Source: Candidatus Venteria ishoeyi (GTDB lineage: Bacteria; Pseudomonadota; Gammaproteobacteria; Beggiatoales; Beggiatoaceae). From it: a stretch of DNA of 36,075 nt. Numbering within the stretch: the stretch's first letter is position 1; each line of letters begins with the position of its first letter. The notes below the pieces were generated by a model. It was not told the origin of the DNA, did no database searches, and saw nothing but the letters and a program-made list of their open reading frames with translations. Of the stretch, positions 13,936 through 26,022 are shown one piece after another. A program made the position numbers and the translations under genes. The stretch lies in contig NZ_JAUCGJ010000033.1 in assembly GCF_030378065.1 (NCBI RefSeq), positions 17,931 through 54,005 on the forward strand, given 5' to 3'.

Positions 13936-16743
13936 TTACTCCCCTTCAAATTCAGACGATGTGAATTTCAACACATTGCAGTTTTCCTTAACAGTTCGCT
14001 GCAAACCCTCGTCAAAGCCGTCTTGACTCTTGGCTGTGATCTCAACGGAAATGCTCACATCAACGCCTGATTTAGCGGTGAACTGCTGAACAACTTCATC
14101 CACAATATCTACGAATTTCATTTTCGCGGTGAGTGAGTCCATATTAATCGTTCCGTAGAACTGTTTTTTTACAGCCTTCTTTTTGTTTTCTGGAGGGGAA
14201 ACGGGGGGTTGAGGCGGCGTTACTGGATCATCCCCGTCATCCCCGTCATCCCCGTCATCCCCGGGGCTTGGAGGCGGTGGCACTGAAATCCTGGCTTTGT
14301 ATGCAACCGCAGCTTCTCTTTCGATAAGCAATGCTGATTCATCCAGCATGACATGTCCACCATTACCAAACCTGAATCCCAAATATCGATCAGCATCTTT
14401 TCCTGAAGCAAAGCCAAAGAAATCTTCGCTCTCCAATGCCAATGCAATCGCGGTCTGGTAAACATGATCATGAGCCAAACGCGGGAGATACAGATAATGA
14501 CAAGTGTCTTGATAGACCTTCAGTGCATTGACATCCTTAACATCCTCTTTGAAATACCATTGGCTCAATAGATTACGGAGGTGGATAGGCGACCATTCGC
14601 TAACCAGCCATTCTTCTTCCCGAAGTTTATTCTCAATCTCCTGAATGAGATTGGCGGCATTACTGGAAACAGTGACAGCTTCCCAGTCAATTTTCTGGTC
14701 TGTCGCTTGAAACTGATTTGGACACAGCAGCCATTTGTAAGTCTCGCGCACAATCTGTTGCAGGCTCTTTTCCGCACTATCGCAATTCTTCCTGGCAAGT
14801 TTAGCTTGAAAAGTATCCAGATTTATCTTGCCTTCCGATACATCAAATACGATTTCTTTCCAGGCCAGATAGGTTCTTGCGGCATCTTTCAATCGACTAA
14901 CCACGTCGTAATCAGCCGCCAGGAACAAAAGGCGGTTTCTTTTTTGTCTTGCCTGCTCGCCGCGATATTGCAATATCGCCTCGGCAGCCTTTGTAGCCAA
15001 ATGAGAATCCCCCTTGCTATAGCCTTGATCGGGCGCAAGTACAACCAATCTTGGGCCGGTTCCATAATCATCGGGCACATCATGGGAAGGGGTAAAAATA
15101 TGGATACCTGCAAAAAGATGCCTGGAAGCAAATACCCGCTGCACCCGTTTTTTTAATTCGGGTAACAAACGTTCTTTGTATGGGATATTCTGTTTGCGGC
15201 TTTCCATCTCTCGACGCAGATTGGGCTTCGTATCAAGCCAGAATCGATCCTGATCTGAATAGAGATAGTGCAGGCGATCACGCAGCCGTTTGAGTACATC
15301 TTCAAATATACCCACGGTCTGCCCTGGTTGTACCGTCGCTAACAAAATACGCTCAAGCTGAACCCCCTTGACGATCTGATCACCAGCCGCAGCGGCGCTG
15401 CCGAGAAAAATGGCACGCATGGTACGATGCGCCGCCTGTACGCTACCAAAGCGGGTATCGTCACCATCAATGTTATGTGTCGCGGAGCGCGGGCCATCAA
15501 CCTCCCTCTCTATGATGGGTTCCCAGCCCTGCGGCAAATAGTGAATACTCTTGTTGCGCACCACACTGTCACTCAGCGGGATAGACCCTGGCATAATCAG
15601 CGCATCCTGATTGTTATCATTCCACAGCCGATGAATAATCACCGCCATGTATTGCAACACTCCCCGCGTACGCTGAAACTTATCCAGTGTTGACCAGTCT
15701 TCATAGAGCCGGTCAAAAATCTCTGGATGGATGGGGTACGAGTTACAAAGGCGTTCAAAATAGGCATTGCTTTGCGTCTCTACCGGAAAACGCTCGGCAT
15801 GTTGGCGGTAGAAGTCTGAGAACTGACGGCTGATGCCCTCCACCTGGGAACGCTCACCCGCCTGTTCAAAAAGCCGCCTGCGAACAATCTCGAAGGCTTC
15901 CTCGGCGGCGACCGGTTTCCAGATTGATTCCACCCGACCAAAATGCTTTTCCAGTGCCACTAAAGTCTTTTGACCAAAGGAATCTCCCACCTCGGCATCT
16001 GATTCCGGCAGTGATGCCAAAAGAATGGCATTAGGTACCGCCTTCATCGCCTCGGTAATTGCCTGCACAAAGGCCAGATTACTCTCATAGGTTCCCGCCT
16101 TAAACTGCTTGCCATTGGCAAGCTGGCTAAAGAATTTCTGTAATTCATCAATCAGCACAACACAAGGCGCTGCCTTTTGTAAGAGGTTTTTCAGTACATC
16201 CTTTCCAGGTGAGGTGCCATCCCGGTCGCTATCGGCAACCATCAGATAACCCTCGTCTCCCAGTAATTGCCAGGCCAATTCTCCCCAAAGTGTATTGGCT
16301 TGAATACTGCCATGATGCTGTGCCTGGCTTACCGACAAGTTAATTCCATCAAGCACCGCAATGTGCGCGCTTGGCAGTGCATGAATCTCTGCTTTATCCA
16401 ATACCGGCGGGATGCCTTCGAGTTTGTCGGTACTGACTTTACGCGCAGCCAGATGCAATACCGCCAACATCGTATGGGTCTTGCCACCACCAAAGGCAGT
16501 CTGAAGCTGAATAACCGGGTCTCCGCCCTGTCCTGCCAAGCGTTGCGCGACCGACATCAACAACAAGCGCATGCCTTCGGTGATAAAGGTGCGGGAAAAA
16601 AACTTTTCGGCATCCTGATACTCAGGCGTTGCCTTACCCGTGGCAACCAGGGTAATATCTGCCGCAAACTCGGACTGTTTGAATGCACCTTTCCGCACAT
16701 CCTTATGGGGTTTGGCGATTTCACGCCAGGGTTTTAAACTCAT
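13936..16743 (-). CDS. DUF499 P-loop ATPase of a DNA-modification defence system
   Basis: This 935-residue ATPase has Walker A in FGGGKTHTM (residues 84-92) and Walker B in [12 protein letters not shown] (194-205). The long helical remainder and the opening [19 protein letters not shown] fit the DUF499 family, which recurs with DUF1156 methyltransferases in defence islands and resembles the large ATPases of BREX. The expected role is to power or gate recognition of unmodified DNA; that is inference. Residues about 825-865 form a disordered linker with a GDDGDDGDD run and Pro-rich flanks, before a C-terminal domain of about 75 residues. It is the last gene of a five-gene operon, 71 bp after the methyltransferase. 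Confidence 0.85.
14228..14263 (-). repeat. 9-bp tandem repeat, four units, coding (DDG)n
   Basis: Four perfect copies of tcatccccg on the plus strand encode Asp-Asp-Gly repeats in the linker of the DUF499 protein. The unit length keeps frame, so copy number can vary without disrupting the gene. Confidence 0.95.
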
Positions 16744-16814: not shown

Positions 16815-19800
16815 CTAAACATCCATGCCGAACTGTTCATTACGATGCCCTGTCTCATGCGAAGCGGCAACAATCGCGTGCCAGGCACCAATCAACTCAT
16901 TATAGGCGCGGGCTTCATCTGCCCATTTTTTGCGCTCACACAGGGTATAAAGATGGTAGGCCAGTTGGCGGATAGATTCGCCTTTCTCCGACATAGCCGC
17001 CAACAGCGCACCGGCCTCGGATTCGCCTTGTTGATTCAGCACCCGAATCATCTGATGGCAAGCCTCCCATATCGGGGTACGGGTATCATTGCGAGGATCC
17101 CAATCAATCGGATATTCTGCCCACTTCAGCAGCCGTACCTTGCCGCCACCCGATTCAATCACCCCGGCATCCCGTACCCCATCAACAGACGTGCCCTTAG
17201 CCCGTGCCAAGGTATCAGCCTCGCCAAATTGACCTTCACTCCAGCCATATTGACTAAACCAGTCATCACAAAACAAAGTATCGGCATCGAAGTTGCCGCC
17301 GTCGGGATTGAGGTAGTCAGTGATGGCGCGGTTAATTAAAATCAGCGCATCGTGTACGCTCATGCTGCTGCCGTCTTGATTCAATACCGCTGCGTATTTG
17401 GAAAAAATCGCCATGCCAGGGCCAATGGCGGCCTGGGCTAAATCCACCGGGGCGATGGGCGCAGTGCCGGTTTCACCGCCGATCATGGCTTCCAGAGCTT
17501 CAGGCATTTGCTCGCGTAGTTGGCGTTGGAATTGGCGGCGGGGGGTGGAGTCGGCTTCTAATTTACGTTTTTGGCATATTAAAACGACGGAAGAGGCTAA
17601 GGCATTGGAGCCAATACCGATGGTTCTTGCCCCTCGTTCTGTTCTAATAGGCCAAGTACCTGTAATAGCAAAGCCTGATTTTATAACTGCTTCTAAAAAT
17701 GTTTCCCAGCCTGTACTTGAAGTACTTCCCTCTTTGGTTTCAGACTGTTTAAAAGCGTAATAAATAGAAACGGGGAAGGCTGGGTGACCTTTTTTCGCCA
17801 TATTGTTAATTGCTAAGGTCATACCTTCCAAAAAAAAAGTTTCAGCCTTTTCTTTGCTGCCGTGTCGATACGGGGTAGCAACTAACTCTTCTGCTTTAGG
17901 TACAGCCATCGTAGAAAACAAACTGGGATATATAACCTTTAACGAGCGACGCATCCATACATAAAAAAAATCAGAAAGGTCTGCGTAACCAATATTGTCA
18001 TAGTATGGTGGATCAGTTGAAATTACTTTATTAATGGAAATATCTTGGGTTTGAGCATCATTTTGAACCGCTTGACCAGCGATATGAGAATTAAAATTAC
18101 AAAGAACCTTAAATATCCCATTTATCGATACAACCAAATCACCAGCTGCATTTGCAAACGGGTTGGTTTCCGCATAATCCCACACCATAGGCAATGCTTG
18201 TCTTCCAAAAGTGGTTTTTAGTTGATCTCTCGTTGGACTCCATGCAACTAGAGAACTGTTGTAATCACCGAGTTTGTCACTTGCAAACCCCAAATAAACC
18301 GCTAACGCATCCCCATAAGCCGTTGCACCACAACCACCCTCAGCCAATGGAATGGAATCCGGGGTTTTTTGAGGGCGAGACGCCCTCGCTCCGTGATCCG
18401 TAGGAGCGAGGGCGTCTCGCCCTCCAGCCCAAGCACTACCAAACTGCCACGCTTCGGCATCTTCACACAACCCGGCTTTCACCGGATTCTGCTCGATATA
18501 AACCCTGGTTCGCTCAAAATGTTCCTCATTCCGCATTGCCCTGTCAAAATAGTCAGCCTGCCAAAAGCTACCCTTACGCCCCAGTACCTGGTTAGCCTGT
18601 TTGGCGCTGTAAGATTTCCACGAGTGAACCAGAGATGATAAAGAGTTACCGTGTAGTGGAGTGACCAGAACATGGACATGATTCGGCATAATCGTCCAAC
18701 TGTGCAGGCGGTAGCGCTCACCGTCGAAATAGCGTAACGCATTCGCCACGATGGTGGCGATCTCCGATTGTTGTAAATAGCAGGCACCGTGACTTTGATC
18801 GAGTGCCTGATCAAAGCGTTGACGCTGCTTTGCAGCCTGTGTTGAGGCATGAGAAGGCTGAGTGACCGCTTGCCATTGGGCGAGCAGTGCTTGCGGTATA
18901 CTGTCGGCGAGACGAAATACGATGTGCTGAGGATGCTCACCGGCTTCGTAATGTGGGAGTTTGGTGCGGTGATGGATTTTTTGAGGGCGAGACGCCCTCG
19001 CTCCATGATAGTCGGCAATGGCTTTTTTGCGGGCTTCCTGGACTAAATCGGAAAAGGTGGTTAAGGCGAGCAGTTGGCGCGGAGTGAAGAGATCGCTAGG
19101 AGTATTCAAGCCAAAATTTCGGCACCAAACATCACGAGGATTTGGTGACAGTTCGACTTGTAAACCGGATTTATCAGCTTCTGGAATATTTTGAGGTAAC
19201 TGAGAATATTTTGCAGACAAATACACTCTACCTTTTTTGCCTTCGCAAACCACCGCGGTCTGATGGCTTCCCAATCCTACTTTATTGGCTTGCTCCGCAG
19301 TATAGTTTCTTGTTGTTACATGTCCACAATTTGCACATTCAAATATACCAGACACTCCTCTCTTAAATCCCTTTTTCTTGTCACCAAGATCATTATTAAA
19401 TGTTCGCGTAACAAAAAACTCAAATTCTCCATTGTGATTTAGTAAATCTAAATATGCTTCCTTACCTTTTTTTGATGATAAAACGAATGAACTTAGCAAT
19501 GGCATTTCACAACCGCAAGCTGGGTTCGGACATGTTACCGTTCGCGCCCACAACCAGGCAATCACGGTTAAAGCTTCCCCCGCATAGGGTGCTAAATCAG
19601 GTCGTTCAGCCACCATTTCATCGGTAATTTGTACCTTGGGGTATAAATGCCCAATGCGCTTAAACGCCTGTTCACGCATCCAATGCCCATAACGGCGCAC
19701 ATCTTCGGCTAAACCTTTAGCGCCCGACCAATCTTCAAAGCCATCTTTGGTGGCCCTTTTTTTGCTGGTTTTATCTGCTGCCGGTATGGGGCCAACGGGT

Positions 19801-20381
19801 ACCTGGCCTGCAAACTTGGGTGGTATCTCGATCATGGCTTTGTTGATCATCACCGCCACCGGGTTTAAGTCACTGGCATAACTCTCCAGCCCTAAGCGTT
19901 GCGCTTCTAAGGGAATCGCGCCACCACCGGCAAAGGGGTCATGAAAGGCGGGTAATTTTTCCGGGTTAAACAGTTCTGCCGCTTGCGGGTGCTTGCGGTT
20001 TAAATCACAGGTTTCTCGCCAGCTCTCTTTGATGGCTGCACGGGCACGATTCAGCACCGTTTCGTTATTGGTATTTTCCCATTTCACCAGGTCACGGATA
20101 ATCTGAAACAGCTTTTCGCGCTTGATTTCCGCTTCTTTTTTATTCACCCCGTATTTAAAGCCCTCGCCTTGCTGATAGCCGGGGTCATTGACCATTTGGG
20201 CAAATATCACCGCCCGCGCCGCCGCCAAAGGCCGACGCGCCCACCAAAGGTGTAAGGTGCTGGGGTGTCCGTGACGTATGGATTTTTCCCGCGCAGCGGC
20301 AGCGTTAATATCATCTAAGGGCAGTGCCACTTCAATGAGTTTTTTGGGGCTGAATATTTTAGCTTCCTTATTGGTTGTCAT
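16815..20381 (-). CDS. DUF1156 DNA methyltransferase with inserted REP-type transposase domain
   Basis: The product is 1188 residues. The DUF1156 start ([39 protein letters not shown]) covers about 10-65. The SAM-binding motif is [14 protein letters not shown] (147-160), and the catalytic [20 protein letters not shown] is at 788-807, as in adenine or exocyclic-amine methylases. Cys clusters at 284-291 and 349-352 ([12 protein letters not shown]) suggest a zinc site. Residues 459-673 do not belong to the family: they are an in-frame REP-associated transposase. Family sequence resumes at [20 protein letters not shown]. Both halves look intact, so one long product is expected. It lies between the HNH and DUF499 genes and would modify host DNA for self-recognition. 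Confidence 0.88.
18371..18424. repeat. Inverted pair of 22-bp REP-like palindromes
   Basis: Bases 18371-18392 and 18403-18424 are exact reverse complements with a 10-base spacer, and each arm is itself a hairpin over gagggcgagacgccctc. A third copy in direct orientation with the first is at 18983-19004. This BIME-like arrangement beside a RAYT gene fits the known target sites of these transposases. Confidence 0.95.
18371..19004 (-). mobile_element. In-frame REP-associated tyrosine transposase (RAYT, Y1/HUH) with flanking REP palindromes
   Basis: Residues 470-655 of the methyltransferase reading frame match the Y1/RAYT family: the HUH motif is [15 protein letters not shown] (His 568 and 570), followed by [31 protein letters not shown] and [11 protein letters not shown], with Tyr 611 or more probably Tyr 628 catalytic. 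REP-like hairpins (stem gagggcg/cgccctc, three-base loop) lie at 18983-18999 on one side and as an inverted pair at 18371-18424 on the other. The arm at 18403 is preceded by the GTAG tetranucleotide typical of REP sequences. All palindromes are translated ([17 protein letters not shown]). The whole unit is about 634 bp and keeps the frame. Confidence 0.88.
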
Positions 20382-20410: not shown

Positions 20411-21043
20411 TTACGCGGGAAGCAGCACATGCTTAATGGCTGTGCTAAAAGGTAGATTTTTAATACTGTCTAATTCGTCTTGCAGAAGGGGCAGCCAATC
20501 GGCTTCATCAAATTCGGCTGCCAGACTGGCAAGTTCTTCGGCTGTTTGCAGGTAGCCTTTTACTGCCGTTTCACGTATCTGACGCAACGAACCGTTTAAA
20601 TGAAAAATACGAATAGTTTCTTGAGCACGATGCTTATCATTTGGATTGAGTCCTTTAGCGGGTGTAATACTACCATCGGGTAAGAACTCCAAAAACCTTT
20701 CCGGGTCTTCTTCATCCATTTTAATAAGGTCTTGATAGTTGTAAGGCGGTAGAGCATCTTTGTATTTACCACAACTATCTTGACGGTTACAAGAGCCAAA
20801 AATATTACGCCACAAAAACGTGCCTTGCGGGTAGCTACATCGCTGGCGGAGATGTTCTATGTGTGAATTCGCCCTATCAGTTTTAATTTCAGCTTCACAA
20901 TAAGCGCAACGGTGTTGTTGCATCTCATCCAGCTTTAGCCAGATGTCACTTTTATGGTCATGACTTACACTACCCCAGTTATCTCTGCCATGTTGATATT
21001 GGCCTAAGCATGTTGGCGATCTAGGGCGATCTAATTTATGCAT
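20411..21043 (-). CDS. HNH endonuclease, PtuB-like (Septu family)
   Basis: This 210-residue protein has an HNH-type metal fold: CAYCEAEI (Cys 46/49), then SHIEHLRQRCSYP (60-72), and GSCNRQDSCGKYKD (83-96). The layout matches the TIGR02646/PtuB family of nucleases that act with an AAA ATPase in Septu and some retron defence systems. The ATPase gene is directly upstream with a 9-bp gap, and AAGGAAT lies 7 bases before this ATG. Cleavage of phage or host nucleic acid upon ATPase release is known for the family and inferred here. A general HNH nuclease acting as the restriction partner of the methyltransferase is the alternative. Confidence 0.85.
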   Translation of the reverse strand: MHKLDRPRSPTCLGQYQHGRDNWGSVSHDHKSDIWLKLDEMQQHRCAYCEAEIKTDRANSHIEHLRQRCSYPQGTFLWRNIFGSCNRQDSCGKYKDALPPYNYQDLIKMDEEDPERFLEFLPDGSITPAKGLNPNDKHRAQETIRIFHLNGSLRQIRETAVKGYLQTAEELASLAAEFDEADWLPLLQDELDSIKNLPFSTAIKHVLLPA

Positions 21044-21052
21044 CGTTATTCC

Positions 21053-22486
21053 TTACTGGTTGCGCTTAGGTAGCTTGGCTTTCATGACTTGCAAGCGAAT
21101 CAAACGCCCACATTCCAGCCATTCTTGATGAGATTCACCAAAGTGCTTAATAATTTTTTCTTTTAATGCTTCCCCTTGATCACTTTCATGTTCGCCTTGG
21201 GTGATAAGTTGTTTGTATTGGGTTAGCCAGTGTGCTTCTTCCACATCCGGGATTGGGTCAACTAATTGTAGCTCAGCCATAACATCTGCACTGGCTACGC
21301 CTCGGCTTTGTTTTAACGGCAGGTTTGCTGTTGAAATGATTTGCTCGGTATCGCTATTAAGCTCGTGTTGGATTATACGAATACTTTCTGATGGTACGGT
21401 TGAGAGCACTTGGGGGCTATGCGTCGTGACAATAAATTGAATCTCGGGGAAGGCTTGGCGCAGGGCAGCAATCACGGTTTGTTGCCATTGCGGGTGTAAA
21501 TGCATATCGACTTCATCTATCAAGACCACGCCAGGGGAGGTTTTAGCCGCGTTTTCTTGTAAATGGGTATTGAGTAAAATGCAGCGATAGGCGATGTCCG
21601 CAATCATTGCCAGCATATTTTTAATGCCGTCACTGAGTTGCGAGATTTTCATAACCCCATACTTGGGATGTTTTAATACCAGCGATTTATCATATTTTTC
21701 GCCACCGTATTGCAAACTGTGCCAGCCAACAGGTGCTAGCACTTGGTTGACAGCCTCTTGCACGACTTTTATTGGCATTATTAAGGCTTCTGGCACTTCT
21801 ATGTGCATAATACCGGTTTCCAGCAGTTGGTTAGTTTGGTAGTCCCGCACATCAAAATAGGCGGCGGTAAACCACTCTTCAAATTGCTTAAAGCTGGATG
21901 CAGGATCTAAACAATCACGGTAGGCAACGGTTCTTATCTGCTGATTGGTTGTTTCAGTCGTGCCTTTTTTACCATCGGTCAACCGTTTTTCTCGCCACAA
22001 GCGACCTGTGCCGTAATACCCGAAAACAGGCAGGGTTTGTGCTGGCTCACCTAAGTTTCTTATTGCTTTTTGAACACCTTTGGCGTAAGTCTTTAGTATT
22101 TTTGTGCCAGCATCATCTTTGGTTTGTGAGCGTTTGGTCTCGCTGTCACGATAGCGCTGCCAGGTGCTGTCGTTACTTGTCGCACAAATTGAGGCCGGGA
22201 GTTGGCGCGCCATTTTATCCAGTGCACCAAAGGTGTTTGATGTTTGTTGCACAGATTTAACGATGCTTACATCGTCAATCATGATGGTATTGGCAGGGTC
22301 AGCATAGGCAGGCTTGGCTAAATCAAATTGACTGACAAAAGGCCACAGAGCAATGCGAATGGCATCTAAAATGGCTGTTTTGCCCTCGCCGTTGTTGGCG
22401 ACCAATACCGTGATATTGGCGTGGAGGTCTATCTCCAAGTGCTGATAGCAGCGAAAATTTTCCAGTGTTATTTTTTTTAATCTCAT
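21053..22486 (-). CDS. AAA/ABC-type ATPase, PtuA-like
   Basis: This 477-residue SMC/RecF-like ATPase begins [20 protein letters not shown]. The P-loop is ANNGEGKTA (30-38), the ABC signature-like [15 protein letters not shown] is at 283-297, Walker B is [18 protein letters not shown] (319-336), and the switch His is in [12 protein letters not shown]. There is only a short helical insert and no TOPRIM domain, so it is closer to PtuA than to an OLD nuclease. Its ATG overlaps the helicase stop (ATGA at 22483-22486), showing coupling. With the HNH protein it forms a Septu-like pair inside the larger operon. Confidence 0.87.
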
Positions 22487-25400
22487 AAACTTTGTTCTGG
22501 CGCTATGGCTTTTGAAAGCAATGTCTTTAAGTCTAAATTTTTACTGGTTTCAGCCCAATCGGGTTCTTGTGTGAAAGGCTGCTTGATGTAATACGGCCCA
22601 TCATAGGTTTCGCCATCGACAATCACCACCGCCAATATAAACTTATCAGACTGATTTAAGCCACAACTGATTTCATTACGACTGACAGTGATGATGCTTT
22701 GACCTTTGGCGCGTCCTTTTACCTCAATATGACGGTCGGGTTTGATAGTACCATTGCTGTTAGGGCGTGGTCTTGCCGTGACATCCCAGCCACATTTTTC
22801 TGCACCCACATCTTGTACTGCATGACCAAAACTTTGTTCGACTGCCATCACTGCATTCATCGCTACCCGCTCTATACGGGCTTTGGCCTTGGCATCAACA
22901 AAAAATGCCTGCTCACCTTTGCGCTGGGCTAATAGCCCTTGAGGTATGACCAAGGCCCCGGCAATCACCAGTGGCGTACTGGAGACCACGTTTTTTTGGG
23001 CGCTTAGTTCTGATTTTCTCTGTTCCAGGCGTGCAGTCAGTTCCTCTACACGACGACGTGCCATTTCCGGCTGCATACGTGGTTGTTTGCCCGCTTTTAC
23101 TTCTTCTTTGAGCTTGATGTAATGGTCTTGCTGATGGTTAATTTCTTTCACCAGGCGTTCATTGACGGCATTGAGTATTTTATCAGTCTGTTGCTCACGC
23201 CGTGCTTTGACCTCGGCATAATGTTCTGGCACCAATTTTTGTGATGCATGATTAAGCGCCAATCCTTCGAGATCGTCACTTAGCCAGGGCGCATTGATAA
23301 TGTCAGCGACTAACTTGTGGTCATAGTCATCTATTGCTTGTAGATCAAGGTGTGGTGCCCATCCGGCATTGCTGGCCTTAGCTTGTTCATCAATCTCGAC
23401 AAATTGAGGACGGCGGGAGACGACCCGCGCCCCGGCGCTTGATTCCCGTACGCTATGGTCAATCATAAACAGTATTTTAGGGCTTGTGCCATCATCACTG
23501 GGGTCAACCAGTACCGCCCCTTGTTTGAGTTTTTGGCGGTGGGCCTGTAGCACCAAATCGGTTGTGGCATACATCAACGGATGGGCCGGGTGAATCAGGT
23601 CAGCCATGGGTTTGCCCTGCAAGTGGACATGTTGTTTTTCAAAGCAGATGCGTTCATATTTGCGCAGTACCGGTGTGCGGGTCTCGCCGATAATGCGATC
23701 CCGCTCACGAATAGCGGCAGGAACATGGCGTACTTCAAAACGCCCTGACTCGCGTGGTCGGGTTTCACCACCGAGGGTTTTAAATGCCTCGTTAAAAAAG
23801 GCGCGGATAAAGTAAGGTTGTAATTTGCGGGCTTCGGCCTTTTCCATCTCTTCTTTGATGCTATAGAGTTCCTCCAGCCCCATGTGTTGCTCGACCAGGG
23901 CATTGCGGCGCAAGACTTCCTTAAGGTGTTCTGTATTCAGTGCACCTTCAAGTTTTTGTTCCATCTTGGCTTTAGTGGCAGGGTCTTCACCATAACGGAT
24001 GGCTTCAATCAACAGGTCTTTGAGTGAGATGTTATCAAAAGCTTCGCCCAATACATCAAACACCTTGCCACCCAGTGCAGCGCGTTCATTTTCAATCTTG
24101 TCAAACAGCTTGTTGAACACATCACCTTCGCGGGTCTCGTTGGCGACAATATTCCATAAATGACAAACTTCGGTTTGACCGATGCGGTGAATACGACCAA
24201 AACGCTGTTCCAGGCGATTGGGGTTCCAGGGGAGATCGTAGTTGACCATCAGATTGGCGTTTTGCAGGTTGACGCCTTCCCCTGCTGCATCAGTTGCAAT
24301 GAGCACTACAACATCAGGGTCATTGCGAAACTCTTCCTGTATTTTGCGGCGCTCATCGCGGCTGGTGCCACCGTAGATGACGCGCACAGCAGAATCATTA
24401 CCCAGCATACCGCTAATTTTTCCGAACAGATAATTCAGCGTATCTTTGTGTTCGGTAAAAATAATAAGCTTGCGGCGACTGCCGTTACTGGTGAACATTT
24501 CCGGCTTATCCTGCAACAGTGAGGAGAGTTCTTCCCATTTCTTATCATTGCCGGATTGTACGACGCTCAGTGCTTGATGCTCCAGATCCTTTAGAATCAG
24601 GATTTCAGTTTCCAGTTCTGGAATGGTCTGTGCGGCAGATGCTTGATCGACAACCTGTTCAGCATAAGTTTCGTACTCCTCGGCACTCAGCTCATCATCA
24701 AGATCATCAAGATTTTCTGGTAAATCAATACGTTTTTTGATGCTGTACTCACCAAGTGTTTCCGCGACCCCATCTTGTGGAATGGCTTGCCCCCGTGCTA
24801 TTAGTTTGGTTTCGGCTAATCGGTCTTGCAGACGTTTACGACGACGCTTCAATGATTGGAAAATGGCCTCGGGGCTGGAGGCGAGCCGCCGTTGCAACAT
24901 GGTGAGAGCAAAGCCAACGGTATTTTTCTTTTTACCATTGAGTTTATCGGCGCGATTCATTTCTTTACGCACATAGGTAGTGACTTGTTCGTAGAGCAAT
25001 GCTTCCATCGGGGAGAGTTCATAGTTGGCGGTATAGGCACGTCGTTCCGGGAACAAGGGCGTACCGTCAAATTTGAGCAGTTCCTCCTTGACCATGCGAC
25101 GCATCATGTCGGAAACATCCACCTTGTGAACACCATCGCGGTATTTACCGTAGAAGCGATCACCATCAAGTAAGGAGAGCCAAATCTGAAAGTCTGCTTC
25201 TTTACCGTTATGTGGCGTCGCAGTCATCAGCAGAAAGTGACGGCTGATAGCGCCTAATAATTCACCGAGCAAAAAGCGTTTGGTTTTATTGACCTTGTTG
25301 CCATAGTAGTTGGCTGAAAGTTTGTGGGCCTCGTCAACGATGATCAGATCCCATTCGGTGATTTTAAGTTTTTCCTGAAAATCTTCGCTTCTGGAGAGCT

Positions 25401-26022
25401 GATCCAGGCGGCAGATAAGTTGGTTTGACTCGTCGAAAAAGTTGCCGGAGGCGCATTGCTCTTGCTTCTCGCGGCTGAATATATCGAATTGAACCCCAAA
25501 CTTTTCCAACATCTCGTCTTGCCACTGTTCAGTCAGTGAGCCGGGAGAGACAATAAGGATACGCTTGGCATCGGCCCTCATCAGCAGTTCACGAATCAGT
25601 AAACCGGCCATGATGGTTTTACCCGCGCCAGGATCATCAGCCAGGACAAATCGTAGCGGCTGCCTGGGCAACATGGCTTCATAGACTGCCGAGATTTGAT
25701 GTGGGAGGGGGTCGATATTAGAGGTATGCACTGCCATCATCGGGTCAAACAGCGCCGCTTGCGTGATGCGGTAGGCTTCCAGTCCAAGCTTGAATTCAGC
25801 ACCCGGTGCATCAAATGCCCAGGGTTTGCCTGCCTGAGCCAGTTCCAGACGCGATTCATCTGAGCGAATCAGCATCTGTTCAGCAACATTGCCTTGAGCA
25901 TCTTTGTAATAGACCGTCAGAGTTGCATCACCTACCGGTCGAACTTGCACAATACATACAATTTCGTCAGCCTGTATGCCCCGGATTTGGGCATCTATCT
26001 TGATATCTTCAAGTTTCAGCAT
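22483..26022 (-). CDS. SNF2/DEAH helicase with C-terminal DUF3883 nuclease-like domain
   Basis: At 1179 residues this is the first gene of the defence operon. The helicase core has Walker [21 protein letters not shown] (127-146), DEAH at 230-233, [10 protein letters not shown] (264-273), then the second lobe with [14 protein letters not shown] and [17 protein letters not shown], and [17 protein letters not shown]. The C-terminus from about 1060 is DUF3883-like, with KCGWDV and a spaced [10 protein letters not shown] (EVK at 1100-1102), resembling the PD-(D/E)xK nuclease motif. A coiled region lies at about 950-1000. The architecture is like the translocases of DISARM-type systems (DrmD). AAAGG directly abuts the ATG, so initiation may be weak. 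The promoter must lie in or beyond the repeat elements upstream. Confidence 0.9.

Follow-up and report, generated by a model that had tools for sequence, protein, structure and literature searches.

How does the coding sequence of a transposase come to lie, without a break in the frame, inside the gene for a defence enzyme? The question is raised by hmaB, a gene for a DUF1156 DNA methylase in Candidatus Venteria ishoeyi. It lies in a window of 36,075 nucleotides (contig NZ_JAUCGJ010000033.1, positions 17,931 to 54,005, forward strand); by the window we mean this whole stretch, and coordinates are counted from its first nucleotide. Within hmaB is a REP-associated tyrosine transposase (RAYT, or TnpAREP) flanked by repetitive extragenic palindromes (REPs). 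We favor the reading, at a probability of roughly two in three, that the insert is a complete REPtron resident in an open reading frame: an element that settles in permissive loops, is produced as a domain of the host protein, and spreads in a homing-like manner.

We found that methylase and transposase are encoded as one protein. A first-pass annotation of the window, made from the letters alone, had placed a RAYT in frame inside a DUF1156 defence methylase, and this holds. Pfam matched DUF1156 at residues 19-94 (106.5 bits), Y1_Tnp at residues 555-632 (38.9 bits) and MethyltransfD12, and nothing else, in the hmaB product. The NCBIfam model NF047646 (REP_Tyr_transpos; cut-off 80) scored 86.6 bits against the whole protein and 90.3 bits against the insert alone. 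The frame is unbroken over its 1188 codons, as annotated. The RAYT has an HuH motif plus a single catalytic tyrosine motif, and its closest solved structure by sequence is TnpArep (PDB 4er8, E 5.6e-8). The PADLOC profile for HmaB matched in two stretches, one on each side of the insert (1651 bits; the better stretch starts at residue 674 and covers profile positions 459-973 of 973), and tblastn matches to homologues likewise lay on both sides. The motifs DPFAGGG and DPPYYD, which we take to be methylase motifs, are present upstream and downstream of the insert, respectively, and HmaB would presumably keep methylase activity despite it. Comparison with homologues that have no insert confirmed the annotated position (18371-19004) and moved the ends slightly outward, to 18360-19007 (Table 1); host sequence resumes at DSIPLAEGG.

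The RAYT is flanked by three copies of a 22-nt REP unit in inverted arrangement and, as first annotated, all three are read in frame with it (as GARASRP, GRDALAP and GARASRP). REP 2 and REP 3 pair without mismatch over 22 bp to make a hairpin (-55.6 kcal/mol, z -9.15). A sub-threshold Rfam match to the small RNA Scr3202 (18334-18426, plus strand; 30 bits against a gathering cut-off of 52, E 0.061) probably reflects the REP hairpin alone.

The REP unit is free of stops in all six frames. In the window, the stretch that begins 10 codons ahead of the insert and ends 40 codons beyond the RAYT's LPH motif has no in-frame ATG, GTG or TTG, and the same is true of one other carrier, L031. The RAYT of the window is thus not a free-standing gene, and it should be makeable only as an internal domain of HmaB. 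Judged from codons, obligate expression as a fusion would clearly apply to the window RAYT and not to every carrier. In L008 and L219 the only start-type codon in the region checked is a TTG inside the RAYT, and in L043, L061 and L221 there is a start-type codon 3-5 codons ahead of the insert. The first-pass suggestion that the transposase is expressed from a defence operon is therefore favored for the window, where common start codons are lacking within the insert and immediately upstream of it. An AlphaFold model, in which the host part is mostly good, places the insert between two long methylase helices (residues 434-464 and 686-707), which makes it plausible that host and transposase fold next to each other.

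A spliced element, either an intein or a self-splicing intron carrying a transposase, would leave a normal enzyme. Its appeal is that the insert recurs at one site with a patchy distribution, as inteins and introns do. However, Pfam found no Hint splicing domain in the hmaB product, no Rfam intron family matched up to E 1 in window positions 18000-19400, and in the window, as in the other carriers that were read, the frame stays open through the whole insert and its REPs. We regard splicing as extremely improbable.

We found that the site is empty in most homologues. A genome scan gave 278 stretches encoding HmaB relatives, of which the best 80 were kept; two of the six search patterns were derived from the RAYT, so carriers are over-sampled among these 80 loci. 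At 75 of the 80 loci there is only a short linker at the site (a gap of -15 to 90 nt between matched host parts). This confirms that the junctions fall in a linker and that DUF1156 homologues have the empty site that the annotation expected; homologues do not generally carry an unrelated linker of this length. A RAYT was present at the same codon in 4 of the 80 loci, and one locus (L044) ends short of the site. The four carriers are Crenothrix polyspora (L008), an Azoarcus metagenome-assembled genome (MAG; L031), a Planctomycetales MAG (L043), in which the contig ends within the insert, and a beta-proteobacterial MAG (L061). The order of the L008 genome (251 genomes) contained two further carriers at the same codon (L219 and L220), and in L221 a RAYT of a different lineage lies a few residues further along the same linker (site B), together with a RAYT at a second site. 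The linker is occupied by a RAYT in eight genomes, the window's own included. We reject chance or assembly error as the origin of the insert. Instead of the single odd fusion first described, it is one case of a recurrent class.

Several features of these loci are recorded here in their own right. The inserts of L031 and L061 end in inverted REP ends (CTGGGAG...CTCCCAG), with a near copy in L008. Locus L221:3730-8022 encodes a single HmaB of 1431 amino acids that holds two RAYTs, one at each of two sites and not of the same lineage; L223 has a second-site RAYT in a degraded gene. REP-only peptides (EGVSPS...GGTPSLPG, GARASRPLFNEGGTPSLPE and GSAGVSPA) are in frame at further HmaB sites in L031, L061 and L220; by eye, the L220 HmaB has at least four of them.

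To compare host and element, we built trees of HmaB without the insert (leaving out L030, L044, L050 and L074, which are partial or broken) and of RAYTs (59 and 73 rows, without the poorly filled rows L122, L166, L177 and L180). On the 77-row HmaB tree the first five carriers require five changes, supported branches forcing every one of them, and a single host clade for them was rejected (delta log-likelihood 706, p 2e-29). On an 81-row HmaB tree the eight site-B carriers need six changes, five of them forced. The RAYTs of the first five carriers form one clade (support 99/97; 200/200 bootstrap trees; 59 RAYTs). Seven hmaB RAYTs form a clade in the 73-row tree (98/96), and the unrelated site-B RAYT of L221 stands apart.

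The two trees conflict in both directions. Host data reject groupings that the RAYTs support: L008 with L219 and L220 (265 log units), and the window with L031 and L061 (393 log units). RAYT data reject L043 with L061 (p 0.003), whose hosts belong to a supported clade of four that includes no other carrier. They also reject L220 with the site-B RAYT of L221 (p 0.03), the hosts of which are a supported pair. The same site is therefore occupied in alleles whose tree conflicts with that of the element, as expected of homing. With carriers scattered on the HmaB tree and their RAYTs grouped in a different order, the element has probably moved between hmaB genes. That one RAYT lineage reached the same site in distantly related hmaB alleles in a homing-like way is part of the reading we favor and shares its joint probability of about two in three.

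Third codon positions of L008 and L220 give a similar picture. They differ by 0.40-0.48 inside the insert and by 0.37 in the two intervals straddling its ends, and by 0.53-0.68 in the other host intervals except the last (0.47). In this pair the insert is less diverged than the N-terminal half of the host (synonymous p 0.009, nonsynonymous p 6e-5). In the control pair, L008 and L219, neither contrast between the insert and the host N half is significant (p 0.14 and 0.72).

Alternatively, the RAYT might have entered an ancestral hmaB once and afterwards been passed down vertically, with clean loss from most lineages. In favor of this, RAYTs and hosts have diverged to a similar degree in most pairs of carriers. 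By eye, carriers with a visible 3' junction have a flank one codon shorter than most empty sites (D-x-[ILM]-[PS]-L), and the same short flank occurs in the RAYT-less loci L020 and L085, which may be relics. Against this, the first five carriers force five changes on the HmaB tree, the orders of RAYT and host conflict in both directions, and the L220 RAYT is nearer the L008 RAYT than their hosts are to each other. We consider a single old insertion unlikely. In L020 and L085 (Ectothiorhodospira) the HmaB linker is longer and unusual, with a carrier-like shortened DD[IM]PLA flank; it is possibly what remains after excision.

We found that the embedded RAYT has been under purifying selection in one close hmaB pair. 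In L008 and L219, which share one insertion, the RAYTs differ by 37 synonymous and 12 nonsynonymous changes (Fisher p 6e-17 versus neutrality). The ratio of nonsynonymous to synonymous rates (dN/dS) is 0.074, compared to 0.091 for the N half of the host. From these substitutions, the embedded RAYT is kept as a protein in this pair. These results argue against a neutral passenger, that is, a chance in-frame insertion that is merely tolerated, which was among the first-pass proposals. The position in a linker and the tolerated in-frame deletion in L061 would fit such a passenger, but both the substitution pattern and the repeated occupation of one codon speak against it, and we judge it very unlikely. 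The C half of the L008/L219 pair looks recombined (dS 0.89): divergence jumps after the insert and falls near the C end, and residues ~690-1000 of the L008 HmaB are probably a recombined segment.

We found that close relatives of the hmaB RAYTs lie within other proteins as well. The query was alignment A1, made from four hmaB inserts. The best 8-12 candidates per genome were scored, and Pfam was run on 29 long frames, two of which (L187 and L176) gave nothing but the RAYT. Overall, 42 of 125 close matches in 1214 genomes were in frame with an identifiable host (38 of 121 after leaving out the window and the three centre genomes). Among 369 genomes of Gammaproteobacteria there were six matches at E 1e-25, and the only embedded one was that of the window. 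Planctomycetota (294 genomes) gave 92 matches at E 1e-30, of which 26 had an identifiable host in the same frame, on one side or on both: ten FabZ-like proteins (five by Pfam, all ten by motif), four alanyl-tRNA synthetases (AlaRS), three Eco57I-type methylases, and one each of HmaB, PurH, an FAD/FMN oxidoreductase, an N6_N4 methylase, a DinG-like helicase, MmeI, a second DUF1156 protein, MoeA and a TPR protein. Eight of the nine matches at E 1e-30 in the order of the Azoarcus MAG (300 genomes) were embedded: one in HsdR, one in HmaB and six standing before a uracil-DNA glycosylase (UDG) domain. In the order of Crenothrix (251 genomes), 7 of 18 were embedded, with the L222 host judged by eye.

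By hand count, 27 of the 42 embedded RAYTs have host-frame sequence on both sides, and 15 are at the end of a host frame or contig (the six UDG cases, L123, L137, L158, L173, L177, L180, L182, L222 and L223). Of the 125 A1 matches, 46 lie in frames of at least 350 amino acids. For control NF047646 RAYTs from 185 gammaproteobacterial genomes, the figure by the same measure was 2 of the 150 matches listed, one of them read through a stop. Phylum, as opposed to RAYT group, may account for part of this difference, since the control was drawn from Gammaproteobacteria, where A1 gave one embedded match in six. Of 41 embedded RAYTs examined, 40 have the HuH motif, as do the two RAYTs of L221; the tyrosine motif was found in 27 of the 41 by a strict pattern and in 39 by a wider one.

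Two of the hosts are occupied at fixed sites. In AlaRS the RAYT lies between VRVLxMG and FSxELCGGTH, and in FabZ-like proteins it lies between QTGAMLLS and KPVLTRILEAKFRG. Alanyl-tRNA synthetase is an essential enzyme. The RAYT-bearing AlaRS is the only AlaRS found in two genomes, G472 and G451 (unbroken frames of 1170 and 1209 amino acids), indicating that the insert is tolerated in an essential enzyme; the assemblies of G524 and G651 show broken AlaRS frames. On the RAYT tree, the RAYTs of AlaRS, FabZ-like and Eco57I hosts do not form a single clade in any of the three cases.

Selection was also apparent in other hosts. For RAYTs embedded in UDG, four pairs had dN/dS of 0.10-0.18, and a fifth pair, one member of which has a broken host frame, had 0.15. 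Of five FabZ pairs, two had dN/dS of 0.13 and three were saturated. Part of the selection on the UDG and FabZ RAYTs may predate their insertion. Taken as comparative sequence evidence, these results indicate that this RAYT group has come to lie in frame in host proteins again and again and that purifying selection maintains it as an HuH/tyrosine protein.

Some loci from these searches are listed separately. Fixed-site RAYTs of planctomycetes include L184 and L168 in AlaRS and L149, L152, L153, L155, L159, L169, L171, L172, L179 and L182 in FabZ-like proteins, with L182 readable on one side only. In the Azoarcus MAG order, L160, L161 and L163-L166 have the RAYT in the N-terminal part of the glycosylase, and in L162 the UDG frame breaks after the RAYT. 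Tandem peptide repeats that look like translated repeat arrays (e.g., DAGQRPALP, DRDGLYASVGHVEP and DAELVLRVPKA) adjoin the RAYTs of L185, L169, L225 and L224.

The range of hosts bears on whether the RAYT has been domesticated, adding a single-strand nuclease or DNA-binding function to the Hma enzyme and being kept for defence. Purifying selection on the insert equals that on the enzyme in one pair, one RAYT lineage is confined to hmaB in our sample, and DNA methylases and restriction proteins recur among RAYT hosts. However, 75 of the 80 HmaB loci have no RAYT, L061 has lost the HuH region yet keeps the frame, and related RAYTs reside in AlaRS, FabZ-like, UDG and PurH proteins, which have no common defence role. 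Domestication for defence, in line with the module first proposed, is therefore possible but not specific, and we consider it unlikely as an explanation of the insert.

We looked for the source of the insert in its own genome, in relatives and in vectors. Three other places in the genome of Ca. Venteria ishoeyi encode RAYTs, all 32% identical to that of the window. Two of these distant matches (G000:C21:55445-55774 and 56466-56795) have equal score and frame length and lie 1 kb apart, perhaps as a tandem duplicate. With only distant RAYTs and no other copy of the palindrome, recent movement within this genome is unsupported. The several near-identical genomic copies expected of an IS200/IS605 insertion sequence were likewise not found. 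None of the 56 other genomes searched had a long HmaB match, so we rejected vertical inheritance among close relatives; G017 has a 47% identical HmaB fragment at a contig end, and G027 and G031 have short partial matches. Distant RAYTs, a palindrome confined to the insert and the lack of a long HmaB among the 56 genomes together suggest that operon and insert were probably acquired from outside.

In the genomes of L008, L031 and L043, nothing but the hmaB RAYT matched under E 1e-25. The genome of L061 gave the two pieces of its hmaB RAYT as the best matches (7e-23 and 1e-18), and the next place scored 1.6e-14. No RAYT relative was found among viral contigs (tblastn, two patterns) or phages, and plasmids gave one partial match (33.6% identity over half the query), so we rejected carriage by viruses or plasmids.

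We suggest the following mechanism. Y1 HuH proteins use a tyrosine to cut single-stranded DNA at hairpin-marked ends. The RAYT domain would be made as part of HmaB and could act on its own REP ends; we infer that the HmaB-RAYT protein is made and that its RAYT still cuts REP single-stranded DNA. Empty hmaB sites might then be filled by insertion of single-stranded DNA after cutting at the REP ends, or by repair from an occupied copy. The cell's need for the host frame would hold the element in place.

Several observations weigh against the reading we favor. The REP palindrome occurs three times in its own genome, all within this insert (19-mer, up to two mismatches), so there is no sign of recent movement there. 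A GTAG foot precedes only one of the three REPs; CATG and CACG precede the other two. In a 20-row subset the clade of hmaB RAYTs is weak (65/84; 71% of bootstraps), which makes this clade likely, not certain. Most carrier RAYTs are about as diverged as their hosts (identity 0.52-0.68 vs 0.57-0.70), which leaves some room for the unlikely alternative of an old insertion, with many losses and recombination. The synonymous contrast between the insert and the host N half lacks significance for L219 and L220 (p 0.32). The middle of the L061 RAYT is missing, with its HuH motif, and the frame is kept. In L220 two in-frame ATG codons lie inside the insert before the RAYT, and a separate start is possible there. 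The RAYT part of the AlphaFold model is poor (mean pLDDT 50.1 for the insert alone, 69.3 for the whole model). Finally, RAYT synonymous change exceeds that of the host in 8 of 10 UDG and FabZ pairs (less in one, the same in one), suggesting that those RAYTs were mostly not simply inherited with their hosts.

On balance, the observation is real, not due to chance, and broader than a single fusion; the insert is of the RAYT/REPtron kind, and there is a fair chance that it represents a class of its own. A stronger proposal is that REPtrons living as translated, unspliced domains of host proteins, essential ones included, constitute a new class of mobile element, in some lineages without a start of its own, held by the host frame and homing to fixed permissive sites (the HmaB linker, AlaRS, FabZ-like proteins) by single-strand DNA chemistry. 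We put this forward tentatively, with the odds somewhat against it. The data point to embedded RAYTs as mobile elements of a kind that has attracted little notice, resident as domains of host proteins. As a rule, mobile genes inserted in protein-coding sequence avoid damage to the host by being spliced out, as inteins and introns are. Here the transposase appears to persist unspliced in a defence enzyme, with related forms in alanyl-tRNA synthetase and other core proteins, and in one close pair it appears to have remained under strong selection. If this is true, a selfish gene has found a new route to being expressed and retained; the case would also be a natural experiment in domain insertion and offer a direct means of testing how RAYTs spread, which is an open question for REP elements. 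A published survey describes discarding unexpectedly long proteins; surveys that discard long RAYT proteins remove the evidence for embedded RAYTs.

hmaB belongs to an operon with the order hmaA-ptuA-ptuB-hmaB-hmaC (Table 1), in which HmaA, PtuA, PtuB and HmaC were each matched nearly end to end by PADLOC. The Septu genes ptuA and ptuB (20411-22486) lie inside the Hma operon, between hmaA and hmaB.

Table 1. Features of the hmaB insert and of the surrounding operon, in window coordinates.
Feature	Position	Strand	Basis or remark
hmaA (helicase)	22483..26022	-	PADLOC HmaA, 2194 bits
ptuA (Septu ATPase)	21053..22486	-	PADLOC
ptuB (Septu)	20411..21043	-	PADLOC
hmaB with in-frame insert (DUF1156 DNA methylase)	16815..20381	-	1188 codons, no internal stop
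DPFAGGG motif	19920..19940	-	upstream of insert
Whole insert (REP, RAYT, inverted REP pair)	18360..19007	-	codons 459-674; comparison with empty homologues
REP 1	18983..19004	-	22-nt palindromic unit, translated GARASRP
RAYT (TnpAREP) domain	18426..18974	-	NF047646, Y1_Tnp, PDB 4er8; ends set by eye
HuH motif MPNHVHVL	18666..18689	-	motif reading
Catalytic Tyr motif, including YIEQNP	18468..18500	-	motif reading
REP 2 (inverted)	18403..18424	+	translated GRDALAP in the gene; GTAG precedes
REP 3	18371..18392	-	translated GARASRP; pairs with REP 2 as 22-bp hairpin
DPPYYD motif	17997..18014	-	downstream of insert
hmaC (DUF499 ATPase)	13936..16743	-	PADLOC HmaC, 1560 bits, and DUF499

The operon is of a known kind. 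Hma and related DUF499-centred, BREX-related systems have the same hmaA-ptuA-ptuB-hmaB-hmaC order, and Hma is reported to be frequent beside Septu type I (PMC8565338, PMC12839542); PtuB is described as an HNH protein (PMC8565338). The terms RAYT, transposase and HUH do not occur in the portion of the PMC12839542 text that was searched. More generally, the literature searched, which was mostly open-access and did not include bioRxiv preprints, gave no description of a RAYT forming an internal domain of another protein.

The insert resembles REPtron/RAYT (TnpAREP) elements in having an HuH/tyrosine protein of the NF047646 family and flanking inverted REPs (PMC6006769, PMC3733652). In the descriptions given there, those elements are genes flanked by REPs, whereas the cassette in the window is an internal domain of another protein. 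Intragenic, translated REPs and the Rickettsia palindromic elements are likewise in-frame palindromes within genes, several of them in DNA repair genes and tRNA synthetases; over half of the REP inserts encode 20-30 residues, and clusters encode up to 82 (PMC3733652). Those are REPs alone, as far as that account goes, and the window insert has a whole transposase in frame in addition. In subclass 2.4 of tnpAREP genes (PMC6006769), REPs are inserted without breaking the frame, as in the window, and the motifs NH[IFV]H, WQ and YIxNNP resemble those of the window RAYT, a likeness of motifs. There, however, a REP lies inside a RAYT, and here a RAYT lies inside a host protein. The ShiLan domain of a phage methylase (PMC11855218) is also an insertion into a methylase without stops in the host frame; it has an intein-like distribution and was judged to home, and is not known to splice. 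The HNH endonuclease of ShiLan uses a GTG start and a frame other than that of its host, in contrast to the Y1 HuH protein of hmaB, which is encoded in the host frame and, in the window, has no common start codon.

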